The notes under the pieces: model-generated
Seen by the model: only the letters and a program-made list of their open reading frames with translations
What the model was told of the DNA's origin: nothing
The model's database searches: none
Part shown: piece after piece, positions 17,061 to 63,242 of the stretch
How positions within the stretch are numbered: the stretch's first letter is position 1
How the letters are laid out: each line of letters opens with the position of its first letter
Source of the DNA: Paraburkholderia acidisoli
Lineage (GTDB): Bacteria; Pseudomonadota; Gammaproteobacteria; Burkholderiales; Burkholderiaceae
Assembly: GCF_009789675.1 (NCBI RefSeq)
Contig: NZ_CP046913.1
Span: forward strand, 1,364,001 to 1,428,000
DNA: 64,000 nt
Direction: 5' to 3'
Program-made: the position numbers and the translations under genes

Positions 17061-17117
17061 ACAGAACAAGAACAAACGCAGTAAAGTGTAGCAAAGGCAT
17101 TATCTGCAAAGATCAAT

Positions 17118-17193
17118 GTCCCCTTCGTCTAGAGGCCTAGGACATCACCCTTTCACGGTGAGTACAGGGGTTCGAATCCCCTAGGGGACGCCA
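17118..17193 (+). tRNA. tRNA-Glu(TTC), copy 1
   Basis: 76 bases with acceptor GTCCCCT/AGGGGAC, anticodon TTC at 17152-17154, T-loop GGTTCGAATCC, and encoded CCA. The mature sequence is identical to the two later Glu copies. Confidence 0.96.
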
Positions 17194-17279
17194 GACATGA
17201 GCGTCGCCGGTAAGATCGTCATGATCCCGGTGAGGTGGCAGGTGGAAATCAACCAACGTCCATCTGTATGTGTCGAACT

Positions 17280-17356
17280 GGAGCGGTAGTTCAGTTGGTT
17301 AGAATACCGGCCTGTCACGCCGGGGGTCGCGGGTTCGAGTCCCGTCCGCTCCGCCA
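17280..17356 (+). tRNA. tRNA-Asp(GTC), copy 1
   Basis: 77 bases with acceptor GGAGCGG/CCGCTCC, anticodon stem CCGGC/GCCGG with anticodon GTC at 17314-17316, and encoded CCA. Identical to copy 3; copy 2 differs by one D-loop base. Confidence 0.96.
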
Positions 17357-17361
17357 GATAG

Positions 17362-17395
17362 AAGCCCGTTCAGAAATATTGAGCGGGCTTTTTAG
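17362..17395 (+). terminator. Intrinsic terminator after tRNA-Asp copy 1
   Basis: AAGCCCG-TTCA near 17363 pairs with TGAGCGGGCTT (one mismatch or bulge) and runs into TTTTTAGTT. Because two more Glu-Asp pairs follow, it must be partial or those copies must have other promoters. Confidence 0.6.
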
Positions 17396-17436
17396 TTAGA
17401 GTTGTACAGGTGTAAGCCTACGCTTATGTCCATGTT

Positions 17437-17512
17437 GTCCCCTTCGTCTAGAGGCCTAGGACATCACCCTTTCACGGTGAGTACAGGGGTTCGAATCCCC
17501 TAGGGGACGCCA
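17437..17512 (+). tRNA. tRNA-Glu(TTC), copy 2
   Basis: Identical in mature sequence to copy 1 (acceptor GTCCCCT, anticodon TTC, CCA encoded). Begins the second Glu-Asp repeat unit; 319 bp after the start of copy 1. Confidence 0.96.
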
Positions 17513-17596
17513 GATTTAAATGCGGCGCCAAAGCAGTAAGGCGAAGCCGCCAGCGGGATCTAACCGACGCCCGCCGGTGAGTAGTGAAGCAAGACT

Positions 17597-17673
17597 GGAG
17601 CGGTAGTTCAGTCGGTTAGAATACCGGCCTGTCACGCCGGGGGTCGCGGGTTCGAGTCCCGTCCGCTCCGCCA
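17597..17673 (+). tRNA. tRNA-Asp(GTC), copy 2
   Basis: Same as copies 1 and 3 except one D-loop base (GTCGG instead of GTTGG). Anticodon GTC, CCA encoded. Confidence 0.95.
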
Positions 17674-17742
17674 GATTCGAGTTGTCCAGCAGTGTTGGGC
17701 AGCATGTAGTTCAAGGCGCAAGCTAGCGCTTGTGCCTGTGTT

Positions 17743-17818
17743 GTCCCCTTCGTCTAGAGGCCTAGGACATCACCCTTTCACGGTGAGTACAGGGGTTCGA
17801 ATCCCCTAGGGGACGCCA
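17743..17818 (+). tRNA. tRNA-Glu(TTC), copy 3
   Basis: Identical in mature sequence to Glu copies 1 and 2. Begins the third Glu-Asp unit, 306 bp after the start of copy 2. Confidence 0.96.
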
Positions 17819-17898
17819 AATTAAAATGCGGCGCCAAAGCAGCAAGGCGAAGCCGCCAGCGGGGATCTAACCGACGCCCGCCGGTGTAGCAGCAAGCT

Positions 17899-17975
17899 GG
17901 AGCGGTAGTTCAGTTGGTTAGAATACCGGCCTGTCACGCCGGGGGTCGCGGGTTCGAGTCCCGTCCGCTCCGCCA
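17899..17975 (+). tRNA. tRNA-Asp(GTC), copy 3
   Basis: Identical to copy 1. Last gene of the cluster, followed 5 bp later by a strong terminator. Confidence 0.96.
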
Positions 17976-17980
17976 GAACG

Positions 17981-18017
17981 AAGCCCGTTGGATACGTCCA
18001 ACGGGCTTTTTCTTTTT
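17981..18017 (+). terminator. Intrinsic terminator of the tRNA cluster
   Basis: AAGCCCGTTGGA (17981-17992) pairs perfectly with TCCAACGGGCTT around TACG, followed by TTTTCTTTTT. Confidence 0.93.
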
Positions 18018-26431: not shown

Positions 26432-28189
26432 TTAGCTGTCGCGACGCACACGCGGGCCGTCGTTGCGACGCGCGCCGTAGCCGCCATTGCCTTCACGACG
26501 GCCGTAGCCTTCGCGCTGCTGGCCGCCGAAGCCGCCGCGATTGCCGTTGCCTTCGCCGCGCGGGGCGCCATAGCCGCCGCCGTTGCTGTTGCCGTCACGC
26601 GCGCCATAACCGCCGCGCGCGCCTTCCGGCTTGCTGCCCCAGCTGTTGCCGCCACGGTCGCCGCCGTAGCCGCCACCGTTGCCGCGGTCGCCGCCATAGC
26701 CGCCACCGTTGCCACGATCGCCGCCGTAGCCGCCGCCGGTGCCACGGTTGTTGCCATAGCCACCCGGCTTGCCGCTGCCGCTGCCGAAGCGACGGCCGCC
26801 GCCGTTGCCGCCGCCCGGACGGCCGCGACCGCCGAAGCCACGGTTAGCCGGCGCCGACTTGCGCGGCTCGAAGCCTTCGACGACGTTCACCGGCAGCGGT
26901 GCGCGCACGAAACGCTCGATGCGCTTGAGCGCGCCTTGCTCGGCGTGATGCACGAGGCTCACCGCCACGCCCGAACGGCCGGCACGGCCCGTACGGCCGA
27001 TACGGTGGACGTAGTCTTCCGCGAACTTCGGCAGATCGTAGTTGAACACGTGCGTGATGCCGGGAATGTCGATACCGCGCGCGGCCACGTCCGTTGCCAC
27101 GAGCACGCGCACGCGACGCTCGCGCAGCGCGCGAATCGTGCGGTTACGCGCGCCTTGCGGCAGGTCGCCGTGCAGGGCAGCGGTTTCGAAGCCGGCGTCG
27201 GCGAGCTTGCCGGCGAGCTGGTCGGCGTCCATCTTCGTGGCCGTGAACACGATGGCCTGGTCGAGGCTTTCGTTGCGCAGCAGATGGTCGAGCAGACGAT
27301 CCTTGTGATCGCGGTCGTCCACGTAGTGCACGGTTTGCGCGATGTTCGAGTTCGACTCAACCTTGCGCACGATCTCGATACGCTCCGGATCCTTCAGCAG
27401 GCGGCCGGTGATCGACGCGATCTTGCCGTCGAGCGTGGCCGAGAACAGCATCGTTTGACGCGTTTCGGGCGTGGCGGCCACGATCGTGTCGATGTCGTCG
27501 ATGAAGCCCATGTCCAGCATGCGGTCGGCTTCGTCGAGCACGAGCATCTTGAGTTCGGACAGGTCGATACGGCCGCGCTCGAGGTGGTCGAGCAGACGGC
27601 CCGGCGTTGCCACGAGAATCTCGGGATTCTTCGCGAGCAGCATCAGCTGCTGGCCGTAGGCCACGCCGCCGAGAATGCTGACCGTGCGCAGACGGCGCAG
27701 ATGCTGGCCGTACGTCGAAGCGGCCGTGGTCACCTGCATGGCGAGCTCACGCGTGGGCGTGAGGACGAGGAGGCCGGGGCGTGCCACCGGCTGCGGACGG
27801 CGCTGGCGGCGATCCTGCTGGCCTGCGGCGCCTTGCGGACGCGGCTCGCGCGGCTGCGCGGCCTGCGCCTTCTGGATCTGCGCGAAGCGCTCGATCGCGG
27901 GCAGCATGAACGCGGCGGTCTTGCCCGAACCGGTCGGGCTGGAAACCAGCAGATCGCGGCCGGCGATGCCCGCAGGAATGGCGCGTTCCTGCACGGGCGT
28001 CGGTGCCTTGTAGCCCGCTGCGATCAGCGCGGAGACGATCTCCGGCGACAGACCGAGCGCCGCAAAGGCCGAACCGTCGTTGGCGGCGTCGGCGGCTTGC
28101 GCGGGTGCGTCAGCGGCGGCGGCGGCGTCCAGACCGAGGGCTTGGTCGGCGATTGCGTCGAGGGGGCTTTGGGTATTGCTCGAAGTCAT
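26432..28189 (-). CDS. DEAD-box ATP-dependent RNA helicase, RhlE-type
   Basis: Unwinds RNA, likely in ribosome assembly or RNA decay. All core motifs are present: Q motif (GYKAPTPVQ), I (SPTGSGKT), Ia (PTRELA), II (DEAD in LVLDEADRM), III (SAT), V (ATDVAARGID) and VI (HRIGRTGRAG). Start chosen at 28189 (MTSSNTQSPLDAIADQ) because the frame upstream lacks family sequence; AAGGATTTTC precedes it. Length 585 aa. The C-terminal 140 residues are disordered, with several GYGGDRGNGG repeats then Arg/Gly-rich sequence ending RRDS, a likely RNA-binding tail. A hairpin lies in its leader (28280-28304). Confidence 0.93.
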   Translation of the reverse strand: MTSSNTQSPLDAIADQALGLDAAAAADAPAQAADAANDGSAFAALGLSPEIVSALIAAGYKAPTPVQERAIPAGIAGRDLLVSSPTGSGKTAAFMLPAIERFAQIQKAQAAQPREPRPQGAAGQQDRRQRRPQPVARPGLLVLTPTRELAMQVTTAASTYGQHLRRLRTVSILGGVAYGQQLMLLAKNPEILVATPGRLLDHLERGRIDLSELKMLVLDEADRMLDMGFIDDIDTIVAATPETRQTMLFSATLDGKIASITGRLLKDPERIEIVRKVESNSNIAQTVHYVDDRDHKDRLLDHLLRNESLDQAIVFTATKMDADQLAGKLADAGFETAALHGDLPQGARNRTIRALRERRVRVLVATDVAARGIDIPGITHVFNYDLPKFAEDYVHRIGRTGRAGRSGVAVSLVHHAEQGALKRIERFVRAPLPVNVVEGFEPRKSAPANRGFGGRGRPGGGNGGGRRFGSGSGKPGGYGNNRGTGGGYGGDRGNGGGYGGDRGNGGGYGGDRGGNSWGSKPEGARGGYGARDGNSNGGGYGAPRGEGNGNRGGFGGQQREGYGRREGNGGYGARRNDGPRVRRDS

Positions 28190-28672
28190 GAAAATCCTTG
28201 GTACACAGGAAATAGAACGTCGGCGCCAATCGGCATACCCAAGTCGTCTGATTCTGCAAACAAATCGAAAAACGGGGGCAATCCGCCACACACAATGGCG
28301 GATTTTAGTTAGAAGCTGTTTTGGGTGCGGCTCAGGCCGGGATTGGCCAGCCGCCAGCCTGATATTGACAGCCCGGTATGAGGGCCAATGCAGGGGGGGA
28401 CAGGTTCTAAACTGGATTGGAGCTTAACGCAACGAGTCGTTGCACTGATCGAAAAGGCGACCGGAGCGCAACGCAGCGGGCATTATATCTCGTTTTGTTG
28501 CGGCGCGCCAGTGCGGATTTCGCCGGGTTTGCGAGGCCGCCGGGAGGTGGCTCGCGGCGCCGGGCGGGGTGTCGCGAATGACGCCGCGCGATGGCTCGAG
28601 CGGGCCGGAGCGGCCCGCGAACGTTGTCGCGCTGCGCGCCCGGCGGGACGGGAAGGCGCGTCGGGAAGGGCG
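28190..28672. other. Gene-free stretch between the rhlE-like gene and the acyl-CoA-binding protein gene
   Basis: This is 483 bp. Near the helicase start it holds a perfect 9-bp stem, AATCCGCCA (28280-28288) and TGGCGGATT (28296-28304), around a 7-base loop. The rest, 28310-28672, shows no gene family, promoter pair or terminator that I can support. Confidence 0.45.
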
Positions 28673-55333: not shown

Positions 55334-58264
<2,931 letters not shown>

Positions 58265-58384: not shown

Positions 58385-60640
58385 TCAGAACGCTTCGTCG
58401 GCGGCGAGGTAGCGCCACTGGCCTTGCGGCAGCGCGCCGAGCTGGATGCGGCCCATGCGCACGCGCTTGAGGCCGACCACCCGCAGACCGACCAGCTCGC
58501 ACATGCGGCGGATCTGGCGTTTCTTGCCTTCGCGCAGGACGAAGCGCAATTGCTCGCCGTTTTGCCATTCGACTTCGGCGGGTTTGAGCGGCACGTCGTC
58601 GAGCGAGAGGCCGTGACGCAGTTGGTCGAGCCGGTCCTGCGGGAACACCTGGTCGACCTCGGTCTCGACGTTGCCGAAGGTCACGCGCACGAGGTATTCC
58701 TTGTCGATGTCCGAGTTTTCGCCAATCAGTTGCTTCGCCACGCGGCCGTCTTGCGTCAGCACGAGCAGGCCGGTGGAGTCAATGTCGAGGCGGCCTGCCG
58801 GGGCGAGCGTGCGCAGATGTTGCGCCGAATAGCGGATGCCCGAGCGATCGCCTTCCCATTGATTCTCGGCGGTGAGCAGCACGGCGGCCGGCTCGTAGCC
58901 GTCTTCCGCCTGACCGGAAACGTAGCCGACGGGCTTGTGCAGCAAGATCGTCACGCGACGCGCCTGGGCACGCAGCGCGGCGGGATCGACCTCGACGCGC
59001 TGTTCCGGCGTGACCTTGGCGCCGAGCGTGTCGACGATCTGGCCATCGACATAGACCCAGCCGTTTTCGATCCATTCGTCGGCTTCGCGGCGCGAGCACA
59101 GGCCGAGTTCCGACATGCGCTTGGACAGACGCAGGGCGTTCTCGCCGTCGACCTCTTCGCGCGCCGCGTGGCGCGGCGCTTCAGACTCGGCCGGGCGTTG
59201 CGCGGATTTTTCGGCGAACTTCACCGGGCGGGCGAATTTGCGTTCGCTGCTTTCCTCGCGGCGCGGGGAGCGGCGATCACTGCTGCCTTCGCGTGCCTGG
59301 AACGGGCGACGCTCGTTGCCTTCGTCACGGCGCGGGAAGCGGCGTTCGCCGCGGTCTTCACGAGCCTGGAACGGGCGACGTTCGCCGCCTTCATCACGGC
59401 GCGGGAATTGACGTTCGCCGCGGTCTTCACGTGCCTGGAAGGGACGACGTTCGCCTCCTTCGTCACGGCGCGGGAATCGGCGGTCACCGCTGCCTTCGCG
59501 TGCCTGGAACGGGCGACGCTCGTTGCCTTCGTCACGACGCGGGAACCGACGCTCACTACCGCCTTCACGAGCCTGGAACGGACGACGCTCGCCGCCTTCG
59601 TCACGACGCGGGAATTGACGTTCACCACGGTCTTCACGTGCCTGGAAGGGGCGACGCTCGTTGCCTTCGTCACGGCGCGGGAATCGGCGGTCACCGCTGC
59701 CTTCGCGTGCCTGGAAGGGACGACGCTCGCCGCCTTCATCGCGACGCGGGAACCGGCGCTCACCACCGCCTTCACGAGCCTGGAACGGGCGACGTTCGCC
59801 GCCTTCGTCACGACGCGGGAACCGGCGCTCACCACCGCCTTCACGAGCCTGGAACGGACGACGTTCACCACCTTCATCCCGACGCGGGAAGCGGCGCTCA
59901 CCGCCATCTTCACGAGCCTGGAACGGACGACGTTCACCACCTTCATCCCGACGCGGGAAGCGGCGCTCACCACCGCCTTCACGAGCCTGGAACGGACGAC
60001 GCTCACCACCTTCATCCCGACGCGGGAACCGGCGCTCACCACCGCCTTCACGAGCCTGGAACGGACGGCGCTCACCGCCTTCATCGCGACGCGGAAACCG
60101 GCGCTCACCGCCATCTTCACGAGCCTGGAACGGGCGCCGTTCGCCGCCTTCATCGCGACGCGGGAAGCGGCGCTCACCGCCATCCTCACGAGCCTGGAAC
60201 GGACGACGCTCACCGCCTTCGTCACGACGCGGGAAGCGGCGCTCACCGCCATCCTCGCGCGCACGGAACGGCCGGCGCTCGTCGCCCTCGGGACGTCGGG
60301 CGAAGCGACGTTCGCCGCCATCTTCACGCGGAGCGCGCGGCGGACGGTCGCCTTCGTCACGGCGCGCAAAGCGACGCTCGCCGCCTTCGTCGCGATTGCG
60401 CGCAAAGCCGCGATGCTCGCCTTCCGGCCGACGCGCGGGACGCTCGCCCGAGCGGGCATTGCCGGGACGCGTCGGTTTCGCAGCCGAACCCGGCCGTTTC
60501 TCCGCCGACGCATCGGCAGGACGTCCCTCGGGACGCCCTTCCGGTCGCACCTGCTTACGCGCCGTCGTGCTGCCACGGCGGACGGGTGCGCGCTCCGGGG
60601 CGGTCGGGCGCGGATGTTTGGCTGTCAGTTTGGCTCGCAT
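58385..60640 (-). CDS. rRNA pseudouridine synthase, RluB/RluE/RluF family, with a long Arg-rich repeat tail
   Basis: Converts uridine to pseudouridine in rRNA. The C-terminal 250 residues hold an S4 RNA-binding domain (LRLSKRMSELGLCSRREADE) and the catalytic domain with nucleophile Asp619 in AGRLDIDSTGLL; GKKRQIRRMCE and the ending ALPQGQWRYL resemble RluF (23S U2604), which I infer as the closest type. The first ~480 of 751 residues are extra: a basic start, then 14 near-identical 23-residue units (pieces ERRFPRRDE and ERRPFQAR), each with about seven Arg, six acidic residues and two Phe. Start ATG at 60640 gives MRAKLTAKHPRPTAPERAP. Confidence 0.9.
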   Translation of the reverse strand: MRAKLTAKHPRPTAPERAPVRRGSTTARKQVRPEGRPEGRPADASAEKRPGSAAKPTRPGNARSGERPARRPEGEHRGFARNRDEGGERRFARRDEGDRPPRAPREDGGERRFARRPEGDERRPFRAREDGGERRFPRRDEGGERRPFQAREDGGERRFPRRDEGGERRPFQAREDGGERRFPRRDEGGERRPFQAREGGGERRFPRRDEGGERRPFQAREGGGERRFPRRDEGGERRPFQAREDGGERRFPRRDEGGERRPFQAREGGGERRFPRRDEGGERRPFQAREGGGERRFPRRDEGGERRPFQAREGSGDRRFPRRDEGNERRPFQAREDRGERQFPRRDEGGERRPFQAREGGSERRFPRRDEGNERRPFQAREGSGDRRFPRRDEGGERRPFQAREDRGERQFPRRDEGGERRPFQAREDRGERRFPRRDEGNERRPFQAREGSSDRRSPRREESSERKFARPVKFAEKSAQRPAESEAPRHAAREEVDGENALRLSKRMSELGLCSRREADEWIENGWVYVDGQIVDTLGAKVTPEQRVEVDPAALRAQARRVTILLHKPVGYVSGQAEDGYEPAAVLLTAENQWEGDRSGIRYSAQHLRTLAPAGRLDIDSTGLLVLTQDGRVAKQLIGENSDIDKEYLVRVTFGNVETEVDQVFPQDRLDQLRHGLSLDDVPLKPAEVEWQNGEQLRFVLREGKKRQIRRMCELVGLRVVGLKRVRMGRIQLGALPQGQWRYLAADEAF
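59291..60256 (-). repeat. In-frame minisatellite: 14 tandem 69-bp units
   Basis: The segment AGCCTGGAACGG or TGCCTGGAACGG recurs every 69 bp on the + strand, from 59294 onward. Units 1-8 (high coordinates) are nearly identical; units 9-14 vary mostly at four or five codons (EDGGE, EGGGE, EGSGD, EDRGE). A degenerate unit lies at each end. The array encodes the tail of the pseudouridine synthase and has no frameshift. Confidence 0.95.
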
Positions 60641-60662: not shown

Positions 60663-63242
60663 TCAGACTGCTATCGCGCGCAGCAACTCGGTCTCGACGT
60701 CGATCTGGCGGCGGTTATCGGAGAGTCCCGAGCCGTCGAGCAGAAACACGTCTTCGACACGTTCGCCAAGCGTATTGATCCGCGCCGCATGGACGCCGAC
60801 CTGTCGCTCGGCGAGTACGCGCGAGATGGAATAGAGAAGGCCCGGCCGGTCGTTCGCCGACACGGACAGGATGTAATACTGGCCGCGTTCGTCGGCTCGC
60901 AGGTCGACGCGCGGCGTCACGGGGAAGGTGCGCGAAAGGCGCGACAGACGTCCCTTCGACGGTTCCGGCAGCGCATTGCCCGTCGCGCTCAGGCGCGCCA
61001 CGAGTTCCTGCTCCACGAGATTGGCGATATCGCGGTAATGCACGTCGTCTTCGGTGTTCGCAACGATGAAGTTGTCGAGCGCGTAACCGTGGCGCGTGGT
61101 GCTCACGCGCGCGTCGAGCACCGAAAGACCGCTGCGGTCGAAATACGCGCACATCGTCGCGAACAGATCGGGACGATCCTTCGCATAGACGAGCACCTGC
61201 AACGCTTCGCCGATAGGCGAGGGCCGCGCGCGCACGACCGGCGTGGGCGTTTCGACATGGCGATACAGCACGCGCGTCTGCCAGGCGATATCGGCGGCGT
61301 CGTGACGCAGGAAGTAGCCCACGTCGAGCTTGTCCCACAGCGCACGGTGAGCGTTCTCCGGCACGGTTTCGAGGCGCAGCAGCGCGAGCGCGAGTTCCTG
61401 GCGTGTCTTCAGCTCCGAATGCGCGTCGGGTTTCGCGCCGCCGAGCACGGCGAGCGTCGACCGATACAGGTCTTCGAGCAGCTTGCCTTTCCAGTTGTTC
61501 CAGACCTTCGGGCTGGTGCCGCGAATATCGGCGACGGTGAGCAGATACAGCGCCGACAATCGACGCTCGGTGCCCACGAGATCGGCGAAGCGCTTCACGA
61601 CTTCGGGGTCGGTGATGTCCTGTTTCTGCGCGAACTGGCTCATCGTCAGATGCTGCTGGACCAGCCAGACGATCAGGTCCGCGTCCTCGCCCGCGATGTC
61701 GTGTTCACGGCAAAAACGCCGCGCGTCCGCCATGCCGAGTTCGGAGTGATCGCCGCCGCGGCCCTTGGCGATATCGTGAAACAGCGCGGCCACGTAGAGC
61801 ACCCACGGGCGCTCGAAGTTCGCGATCAACTGGCTGCAGAACGGGTACTCGTGCGCATGCTCGGCCACGGCGAAGCGGCGGATGTTGCGCAACACCATCA
61901 GGATGTGCTGATCGACCGTGTAGACGTGATAGAGGTCGTGCTGCATCTGCCCGACAATGCGGCGGAAATTCAGCAGGTAGCGCCCGAGCACGCTCGTCTG
62001 GTTCATGAGGCGCAGCGCGTGCGTGATGCCCGCCGGCTGCATCAGGATTTCCATGAACAGGCGGCGGTTTTCCGGGTCGCGGCGCCAGTTCCGGTCCATC
62101 GTGTCGCGCGCGTTGTAGAGCGCGCGCATCGTGCGCGCCGAGAGACCCTTGACGCCCGGCACCTGTTCGTAGAGCAGGAAGGCTTCGAGGATCGCGTGCG
62201 GCTCGCGCTCGAACACGTCGTCGCTGACGATTTCGAGCATGCCTTGCTTCTCGACGAAATGATCCGAGAGCGTGCGCGTGATGCCGCTCGTGCTCGGGAA
62301 CAACTGCGCTTCGATGTTCTGGATCAGGATGCTGGCGAGTTGCGTGACGGCTTTTGCGGCCCAGTAATAGCGGCGCATGAGTTGCTCGCTCGCGCGCCGC
62401 GCGCCGCTCGCCGCATAACCGAAGCTTTCGGCCACGGCCGTTTGCAGATCGAAGACGAGAATGTCCTGACGGCGCCCCGCGACCACGTGCAGGCGCGCCC
62501 GCAGCGTCTTGAGAAACGCCTCGTTGCGGCGCAGTTCGCGCGCTTCGCGGTCGGTGATGAGGCCGCGCTGGTCGAGCTCCTTCCAGCTGTTGCCGAACGC
62601 CGCCGCCTGCGTGATCCAGAGGATCAATTGCAGGTCGCGCAGGCCGCCCGGGCTTTCCTTCACGTTCGGTTCGAGCGCATACGGCGTGTCCTGGAAGCGC
62701 GCGTGGCGCTGGCGCATTTCGAGCACCTTCGCCTGGAAGAACGTGCGCGGGTCCATGGCGTCGCGGTAACGCTGCGCGAAGTCGCCGAACAGCGTGGCGC
62801 TGCCGGTGATGCGGCGCGCCTCCAGCAGCGAGGTGCGCACGGTCACGTCGTTGGCGGCTTCTTCGAGACATTGCGACACACTGCGCACGCTGCTGCCGAT
62901 CTCGAGCCCGAGATCCCACGCGAGCCCGATGAAGCGCTCGATCCGCTCTTCGAGCGTCGCGAGCGGTTCGTCGTCGGGCAGCAGCACGAGAATGTCGACG
63001 TCGGAATACGGTGCCAGTTCGCCGCGGCCGAAGCCGCCCACCGCGACGAGCGCGAGCGAAGCGGGCAGTTCGCAGAGACTCCACGCGCGGCGCAGGGTTT
63101 CGTCGGTCGTGCGGGCGAGTGCGCGCATCAGCGCATCGACGTTGGTCGCGCTCCGGAAACGCTCGAGTAACTGGGCCTTGGCGGCCTTGTAGTCGGTCTT
63201 CAGCGACGACGTATCGGGAACGGCGACAGCAGGAACGCTCAT
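60663..63242 (-). CDS. glnD: Bifunctional uridylyltransferase / uridylyl-removing enzyme GlnD
   Basis: Nitrogen sensor that uridylylates PII proteins when glutamine is low and reverses this when it is high. 859 aa. Domains in order: nucleotidyltransferase ([20 protein letters not shown], about 70-90), a linker region, the HD hydrolase domain ([18 protein letters not shown], near 485-500), and two C-terminal ACT domains that bind glutamine (from about 675 and 785). The downstream pseudouridine synthase gene starts 22 bp later and may be co-transcribed. The ATG at 63242 is the only reasonable start. Confidence 0.97.

Follow-up and report, generated by a model that had tools for sequence, protein, structure and literature searches.

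In Paraburkholderia acidisoli, an enzyme that resembles the pseudouridine synthase RluF has a long N-terminal arm, most of which comes from a minisatellite of 69-bp units. We give a probability of roughly 0.55 to the reading in which this arm, of disorder-type composition, is under selection for its charge and has affinity for RNA or pre-ribosomes. Coordinates are those of the window, the whole 64,000-nt stretch of DNA that was analyzed (assembly GCF_009789675.1, contig NZ_CP046913.1, positions 1,364,001 to 1,428,000 of the forward strand), which carries the following features.

57731..58264, plus strand: convergent ORF downstream of the enzyme gene, presumably peptide deformylase-like
58385..60640, minus strand: RluF-like pseudouridine synthase gene, 751 aa (ORF; Pfam; TIGR00093)
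58496..58948, minus strand: PseudoU_synth_2 catalytic domain, aa 565-715 (PF00849, 56.7 bits)
58784-58786, minus strand: Asp619 of the GRLD motif (G616 R617 L618 D619 invariant in 19 sequences)
58994..59131, minus strand: S4 RNA-binding domain, aa 504-549 (PF01479, 38.8 bits)
59219..59233, minus strand: A-R-P-V-K motif between array and S4, aa 470-474 (xPVK in relatives)
59243..60277, minus strand: 15 in-frame 69-bp (23-aa) units, aa 122-466 (TRF; translation)
60278..60415, minus strand: degenerate repeat copies ahead of the regular array, aa 76-121 (TRF secondary rows to 60424; translation)
60542..60640, minus strand: basic N-terminal peptide, aa 1-33, R-x-K-L-T-x-K-x-P-[RK]-P ... R-[AS]-P-V-R-x-G
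60663..63242, minus strand: glnD, 22 bp upstream of the enzyme gene (NF002837, 1485 bits)

The array is built of head-to-tail copies whose length is a multiple of three, and its 15 units run from 60277 to 59243 in frame and without gaps. TRF gave a period of 69, 15.7 copies, an 86% match, and a score of 1253 at 59244-60328, against a top score of 98 in 100 codon shuffles of the N-terminal region. The in-frame minisatellite that had been proposed from the sequence does lie inside a true RsuA/RluB-family pseudouridine synthase, but the 14 units first placed at 59291-60256 are only a slice of it. In the consensus unit, RRPFQAREGGGERRFPRRDEGGE, there are 7 Arg, 2 Phe, and 5 acidic residues (6 where G is replaced by D), in agreement with the roughly 7 Arg, 6 acidic residues, and 2 Phe per 23 that the preliminary description had counted. 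That description also spoke of a tail, wrongly, since the gene starts at 60640 and is read on the minus strand to 58385, and the array is therefore the N-terminal part of the protein: the repeat arm occupies aa 1-495 and is followed by S4 and the catalytic core. Recent expansion, claimed from near-identical units, does not hold for the array as a whole, because units 1 to 8, though almost the same in protein sequence, have diverged at third positions as DNA (pS, 0.396; pN, 0.018). It survives for a few local neighbors, as each step from unit 4 to 5 to 6 changes 3 of 69 bases and units 7 and 8 are 4 bases apart. An assembly artifact is unlikely, with frames of at least 636 aa in all 16 of the other same-genus genomes of five contigs or fewer.

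The S4 domain, the PseudoU_synth_2 domain, and the GRLD motif, whose Asp619 we take to be the catalytic aspartate of pseudouridine synthases, are all present, and TIGR00093 (RsuA/RluB/E/F family) is matched at 115.9 bits, above its cutoff of 109.3. RluF (NF007784) is the best sub-threshold equivalog at 121.8 bits, and we call the enzyme RluF-like rather than RluF because the cutoff of 318 bits is missed. The RluB model (NF007976) gives the arm-bearing enzyme 85.9 bits, below its cutoff of 290, and the RluB of this genome is another locus, L002, with 296.1 bits; the open frame of L002 is 610 aa by our own reading and 907 aa in the ORF listing. Three other family matches in the genome have RluB, RsuA, and RluE as their best equivalogs. 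By these profile scores, the arm-bearing enzyme is a fourth, RluF-like RsuA/RluB/E/F paralog, and it probably modifies ribosomal RNA. Its neighborhood is shared among relatives: of 105 loci with at least 300 nt upstream of the enzyme gene (window counted in), 100 have the glnD C terminus there and 96 have a homolog of the deformylase-like ORF, the 22-bp spacing to glnD being a figure for the window alone.

How widespread the arm is was assessed in relatives found by a match to the core. Of 165 loci, 118 were kept, window counted in, after 3 with assembly gaps, 10 at contig edges, 25 with identical cores, and 9 less than 57% identical were left out. With one genome per species in the collections, length comparisons are between species. 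Arms of at least 100 aa were found at 114 of the 118 kept loci; the nine distant homologs have no arm of 100 aa, and counting them back gives 114 of 127 (before any filtering, 145 of 165). The arm occurs across most genera sampled from the family. It is absent from all 14 sampled genomes of one genus, g13, where the open frames span 249 to 283 aa (listed lengths matched an independent reading in 25 of 25 loci checked), and the enzyme therefore can work without it.

The arm changes rapidly where it is present. Near-species pairs were defined as loci with cores at least 95% identical in DNA (n = 90), with three L160 pairs left out because their identity of 1.000 came from an empty core, and arm length was unequal in 86 of the 90. 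In one pair, with core identity of 98.4%, arms of 455 and 320 aa differ by three 45-aa units. Among the 85 pairs that allowed the test, 24 had a length difference equal to whole units, give or take 2 aa, against 12.2 expected; the pairs are not independent. The variable array length that had been predicted is thus borne out between species by comparison of homologs. Core identities lower than roughly 60% in these pairwise comparisons reflect ungapped alignment of cores that contain indels. From species to species, the arm changes in sequence, in total length, and in the length of its repeat, and what is kept is the net charge per residue, together with few hydrophobic residues and charges that tend to be mixed.

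Net charge per residue averaged 0.112 with a standard deviation of 0.021 over the 114 arms, measured on the whole arm; omission of the first 30 aa gave 0.101. Acidic and basic contents compensate for one another (rho, 0.91), and when acidic content was shuffled among loci the standard deviation rose to 0.048, with 0 of 5,000 shuffles as tight as observed. The same 0 of 5,000 was obtained with a reduced set of 24 loci, one or few per genus, although such counts overstate independence because the loci are related. Moreover, charges were better mixed than in shuffles in 107 of 113 arms, a modest effect (median z, -1.8), while two of 18 representatives, L151 and L163, were more segregated than shuffles. 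That arms of like charge were rebuilt from different repeats suggests selection on charge rather than on exact sequence. GC pressure was rejected as the source of the Arg content, as core GC and arm length were uncorrelated (rho, -0.02) and a locus with a core GC of 0.52, L165, still has a 374-aa repeat arm. We note that of the two lowest-GC cores, one (L149) has a short arm and the other (L160) has none, so that some GC effect is possible.

In the window protein, the arm carries a net charge of +43 and the core carries -5. Median core charge was -0.5 for arm-bearing loci, +7 for 13 short-arm or armless homologs, and +5 for 10 armless g13 loci; the ranges overlap, with exceptions on both sides (arm-bearing L139 at +4 and L153 at +6, armless L141 at -2), and phylogeny and GC are confounders of this contrast. 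The charge-hydropathy line places each of the 114 arms, but none of their 114 cores, among disordered sequences. An AlphaFold model (mean pLDDT, 39.9) put most of the arm at 31 to 40 with no secondary structure but gives no support for disorder, because most of the catalytic domain was also below 50. Judged by composition, the arm is probably flexible and disordered, and its charge is consistent with RNA binding. Matches to an RDM3_C beta-solenoid (Pfam, 38 bits; cutoff, 35) and, by PDB sequence, to Outer Surface Protein A (E, 8.9e-6) covered the repeats alone and were read as compositional.

The array might have no function in the protein at all. Slippage could have enlarged a tolerated low-complexity region, and unit sequence and arm length do vary freely among close species, with one sampled genus, g13, lacking the arm. 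Differences among units, however, are filtered at the protein level. In the window, 926 of 1,219 unit differences lie at codon position 3, and pN/pS in the coding frame was 0.11 for the first 14 units and 0.14 for all 15, compared to 2.4 to 4.0 in the other forward frames. For the 79 of 118 loci whose repeats span 180 nt or more, the pooled ratio was 0.22 in frame and 1.92 and 2.53 in the other frames; repeat windows were picked by nucleotide identity, with frame controls, since picking by protein identity biases pN/pS downwards. In 78 of these 79 loci, the ones in which an array could be detected, the coding frame had the lowest ratio, and the best repeat offset was divisible by three in all 79. 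For comparison, core medians between species were 0.14 to 0.18. We conclude from the low in-frame ratio and the third-position excess that selection acts on the protein. This purifying selection specific to the coding frame, together with the charge compensation, makes neutral growth very improbable; that none of the 118 loci has a broken frame adds little, because they were picked as open frames. Less probable still, to the point of hardly being credible, is that the array works as DNA or RNA, whether as a recombination signal, an mRNA structure, or an overlapping frame. Several other frames are indeed open across the array, but differences concentrate at the third position of the coding frame, the one minus-strand frame with a low ratio (0.20) has stops, and a genome search with the array protein at E <= 10 matched nothing beyond its own gene and antisense strand.

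More serious alternatives accept an arm that works as protein. The arm might be a soluble, adjustable linker for an N-terminal peptide that docks on the ribosome, RNA polymerase, or another factor, a reading that we hold possible but would not favor. A strict pattern, K[LA][TS].[KR] near the start, found such a conserved tip in 101 of 114 arms; four columns are conserved by construction, as the set was chosen by the pattern, but those outside it (the first R, P, and R..PVR) are 98 to 100% conserved in the 101 loci while the arm turns over. The peptide had a pN/pS of 0.13 against 13 Paraburkholderia, and peptide and arm are missing together from L160 and from 10 armless g13 loci. Outlying genera, judged by eye, have a basic start followed by RPVR-like residues. 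A plain linker, however, would need neither a net charge fixed near +0.11 by acidic and basic compensation nor purifying selection on its units. Moreover, five such peptides matched no Pfam family at E <= 10, and a genome search found no second convincing copy (next best E, 0.036). Alternatively, Arg-Phe stickers and acidic spacers could cluster or phase-separate the enzyme with rRNA, which we consider improbable. In the window arm, all 34 aromatics have R or K at -1 or -2 (expected fraction, 0.52), with Phe regularly spaced beside Arg, and across 113 arms 1,087 of 1,512 aromatics lie beside R or K, against 722 expected. Phe, however, makes up anywhere from 0 to 7.3% of the arm in relatives (composition omits the first 30 aa), several arms are nearly without aromatics, and in some genera Arg adjacency does not exceed chance (2 of 17 in L042; 5 of 17 in L025). 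Charges also tend to be mixed, and in polyampholytes mixed rather than segregated charges weaken self-association. Thus, the condensation suggested by the preliminary description could still occur, but the claim is weakened because Phe is not conserved.

A second motif, xPVK, is present in 73 of 114 arms, no more than 140 aa from the C-terminal end of the arm. In the window, the only in-frame ATG, GTG, or TTG codons between the start and S4 are GTG at aa 31 and at aa 473. An internal start that yields an armless isoform was rejected as a general feature, as 23 of 73 loci use GTG for the xPVK valine (a fraction of 0.32, whereas core valines reach 0.53) and SD-like 4-mers are present in 10 of the 73. 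Single cases may occur among relatives, where in-frame ATG is found in 30 of 114 arms and GTG or TTG in 98 of 114.

How the arm might serve the enzyme follows from the charge-selected reading. As a flexible, net-positive polyampholyte, it could have weak, nonspecific affinity for RNA or ribosome precursors and so keep the enzyme soluble and close to its substrate, while the N-terminal peptide, as a cap, may dock on a specific partner. Tandem duplication would lengthen and renew the arm, with bulk charge rather than exact sequence under selection. Other acidic partners could also be served by a net-positive arm. We speculate further, though we think it unlikely, that the minisatellite is an evolvable charge dial across the whole family, with arm length set by repeat gain and loss. 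If so, arm length would set how strongly the enzyme binds ribosome precursors and how far rRNA or tRNA is pseudouridylated, and net charge and mixing would be selected as the sequence is rebuilt time and again. A common view is that selection on disordered regions concerns bulk properties more than sequence, and we know of few clean natural tests. A stable core with an arm rebuilt genus by genus under compensating charges offers a ready comparative series in which to ask what an enzyme that modifies rRNA gains from a disordered arm and whether the turnover of a minisatellite tunes that arm.

The closest known system is PDB 3dh3, presumably E. coli RluF, the best PDB sequence match at 101 bits. 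RluF makes pseudouridine at 23S U2604 and tRNA-Tyr U35. Both proteins have the S4 and PseudoU_synth_2 core with GRLD, but the 495-aa N-terminal arm belongs to the window enzyme, whereas the extra residues of 3dh3 sit C-terminal to the core, since residues 5 to 228 of its 290-aa chain align. SSB and FtsZ have a variable disordered linker with a conserved tip. The window enzyme likewise combines a folded domain with a rapidly evolving, probably disordered stretch and a short terminal peptide that is conserved; unlike theirs, its arm is N-terminal, net positive, and often made of tandem repeats.

A literature search by titles and the starts of abstracts found no description of the array or arm among the matches listed, and the word "pseudouridine" occurs 0 times each in the available parts of PMC7074383 and PMC1853098 and 0 times in the main text of PMC6821194. 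The available part of PMC12366337 gives a VNTR of Ralstonia solanacearum, L539, with 3 to 6 copies among strains in a gene annotated "pseudouridine synthase"; the part of PMC5775269 available merely lists it. Like the window array, L539 is a repeat in a pseudouridine synthase gene, as annotated in that relative, but its unit, as given there, is 15 bp and encodes no Arg/Asp/Glu repeat of the window type in any of six frames. L539 is probably another gene or site. Finally, prokaryotic RNA-binding and RNA-processing proteins have low-complexity regions enriched in Arg, according to the part of PMC6821194 available. Those regions, as presented there, and the window arm are both Arg-rich, low in hydrophobic content, and carried by RNA proteins; what sets the arm apart is its build from tandem minisatellite units, which differ by lineage and include many acidic residues.

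An arm of repeats kept under selection precedes the core of a pseudouridine synthase in the window. The gene and its array are located as follows.

60640 to 58385, minus strand: pseudouridine synthase gene of 751 codons, a single open reading frame
60277..59243, minus strand: array of 15 units, 69 bp each, in frame and without gaps, within the first 495 residues

The final 250 residues consist of two Pfam domains, S4 and PseudoU_synth_2, and the 751-residue protein passes the TIGR00093 cutoff (115.9 versus 109.3 bits), in support of the enzyme class given in the preliminary description. Residues 1 to 495 are of low complexity, and the array had a TRF score of 1253, compared to at most 98 for 100 codon shuffles. 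The array indeed reads in frame, but it contains 15 units; the coordinates given earlier cover 14 units' length (966 bp) of it. Moreover, it is not a tail as was proposed; because the gene is on the minus strand, the array forms an N-terminal arm.

Which synthase carries the arm is a matter of comparison. The genome (5 contigs, 7.95 Mb) gives three further matches (E ≤ 0.001): L002, which is RluB by NCBIfam (296 bits, above cutoff), and the RsuA-like L003 and RluE-like L004, both under their equivalog cutoffs. The window enzyme occupies the place of RluF but is not classifiable as RluF, because RluF is its top equivalog and top PDB sequence match (3dh3) while the score falls below cutoff (121.8 bits versus 318 required). 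The gene lies 22 bp behind glnD; of the 105 loci for which sufficient sequence was available (window counted), 100 also contained a glnD C terminus. The nearest cores in one homologue search belonged to Paraburkholderia, at 86 to 88% protein identity, making this genus the most likely origin of the window. We note that RluB (L002 1009-2841, minus strand; contig 1 near 1.886 Mb) is also extended at both ends, by a charged N-terminal stretch and by a C-terminal tail rich in Gly, Arg, and Asn, such that two of the four paralogues bear long extensions; its frame is 907 residues as listed and 610 by our own reading.

The arm is widespread among relatives. In the family sample, 134 of 150 genomes (window's counted) had a match at E ≤ 1e-40, and 112 of those had an open frame of at least 400 residues, as did at least one genome in 16 of the 19 matching genera (25 sampled). 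Among the 22 shorter frames, 5 start less than 400 bases from a contig start, 3 are others, and 14 belong to a single genus (g13), all of whose 14 sampled genomes (1.7 to 2.2 Mb) encode arm-less enzymes with frames of 249 to 283 residues. All 25 loci checked by stop-to-stop reading gave the frame that had been listed. Of 94 genomes sampled across the class, 10 matched at 1e-30 (window's counted), and of ten non-window matches in nine genomes, only L139 had an arm of at least 100 residues. Within the genus, 56 of 58 genomes matched at 1e-60 (window's counted). An artefact of short-read assembly, a concern raised in the preliminary description, is unlikely because all 16 other same-genus genomes of five or fewer contigs had frames of at least 636 residues. 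Runs of N were seen inside or beside the arm in L017, L075, and L096, as expected where arrays break short-read assemblies. Pooling gave 165 core-matching loci. Excluding those that had gaps, lay at contig ends, duplicated another core, or were distantly related left 118, of which 114 carry an arm of 100 residues or more; none of the nine distant members left out carries one.

A recent expansion was suggested earlier, but the array is mostly not recent, as differences concentrate at codon position 3 (926 of 1,219 across all 105 unit pairs) and pN/pS is low in the coding frame (0.14 across the 15 units, and 0.11 with the last one left out, versus 3.95 and 2.37 in the two other forward frames). 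The first eight units encode near-identical protein, yet their pS is 0.396. Adjacent units differ by 3 to 14 of 69 bases, and the 3-base steps across units 4 to 6 and the 4 bases between units 7 and 8 may reflect younger duplications. Selection maintains the protein near-identity of the units. The same holds in relatives: for tandem-repeat windows picked by nucleotide identity in 79 loci, pooled pN/pS was 0.22 in frame versus 1.92 and 2.53 out of frame, and the coding frame was lowest in 78 of the 79. Because core medians between species are 0.14 to 0.18, the units are constrained nearly as tightly as the enzyme core.

Sequence and length turn over between species. A tandem repeat of at least 180 nt was detectable in 79 of 118 loci, with a best offset divisible by three in every one (29 values from 12 to 69 residues, some being multiples of a shorter unit). 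The predicted length variability was borne out between species in aligned homologues, as arm length was unequal in 86 of 90 pairs with core DNA identity of at least 95%. At 95 to 100% core identity, arms differed by a median of 46 residues and shared a median of 0.60 of their 5-mers, which fell to 0.03 at 80 to 85%. Of 85 testable pairs, 24 differed in length by a whole number of units to within 2 residues, versus 12.2 expected, although the same loci recur across pairs, which are therefore not independent. In the clearest case, L063 and L067 (core identity 98.4%), arms of 455 and 320 residues differ by three 45-residue units. Repetition looks like how the arm is made rather than its purpose, as 35 of 114 arms have little detectable array.

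What persists is composition. Net charge per residue was 0.112 (standard deviation, 0.021) over 114 arms, and basic content compensated for acidic content (rho, 0.91), with none of 5,000 shuffles of acidic content equally tight; a reduced set of 24 loci, one or few per genus, gave a rho of 0.83 and again 0 of 5,000. For 107 of 113 arms, charge mixing exceeded that of shuffled sequences by a modest margin (median z, -1.8), whereas L151 and L163 showed the reverse. Ile, Leu, Val, Met, and Cys make up 1.8% of arm residues versus 10 to 22% in three other frames. In the window, the arm carries +43 charges and the core -5. Core median charge was -0.5 with an arm, versus +7 across 13 homologues whose arm is short or missing and +5 across 10 g13 loci that lack it (net charges of +3 to +7; among L160 and L178 to L187); arm-bearing cores less than 70% identical to the window's had a median of 0.5, with ranges overlapping the arm-less ones. 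The lower core charge suggests that basic charge located in the core of arm-less enzymes is provided by the arm where there is one, with phylogeny a confounder.

How the arm acts is best read as affinity. A disordered, net-positive arm would draw the enzyme towards RNA or ribosome precursors, a basic N-terminal peptide would cap it and dock, and tandem duplication would lengthen and renew it. The analysis establishes reading frame, selection, distribution, turnover, and charge compensation, whereas disorder within the cell, affinity for RNA, docking, and any effect on modification are inferred. The chief rival holds that the arm is a tether and the peptide its useful part. A pattern search located the peptide in 101 of the 114 arms, in which columns beyond the pattern (R, P, R..PVR) are 98 to 100% conserved, and several of the 13 pattern-negative arms carry a close variant. 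We consider the tether less probable than the affinity arm. Condensation of the enzyme, also proposed earlier, is possible for this species, as the aromatics of the window arm regularly adjoin Arg (34 of 34), but by composition it is not a property across the family, in which Phe ranges from 0 to 7.3% of the arm. An affinity arm with a docking cap is, in our view, the better account.

Other features of the window are listed here.

26432-28291, minus strand: RNA helicase of the DEAD-box type, judging from its sequence, with a C-terminal Gly/Arg tail
17117-17988, plus strand: tRNA-Glu(ttc)/tRNA-Asp(gtc) pair in three tandem copies, period 306
55364-55445, plus strand: isolated tRNA-Glu of 82 nt (ARAGORN)

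The helicase tail has a 30-bp in-frame repeat (GGYGGDRGN-like), making it another RNA enzyme in the window with a repeat-bearing tail. The isolated tRNA-Glu differs from the other calls in placing its anticodon at position 29; it may be an unusual tRNA or a misprediction.

Among the papers listed in literature searches, no title or abstract opening described the arm. A strain-variable repeat occurs in a Ralstonia solanacearum gene annotated as a pseudouridine synthase, (PMC12366337), but its unit is 15 bp, and none of its frames encodes a repeat of the window type. Low-complexity regions rich in Arg are a known class among RNA-processing proteins of prokaryotes (PMC6821194).
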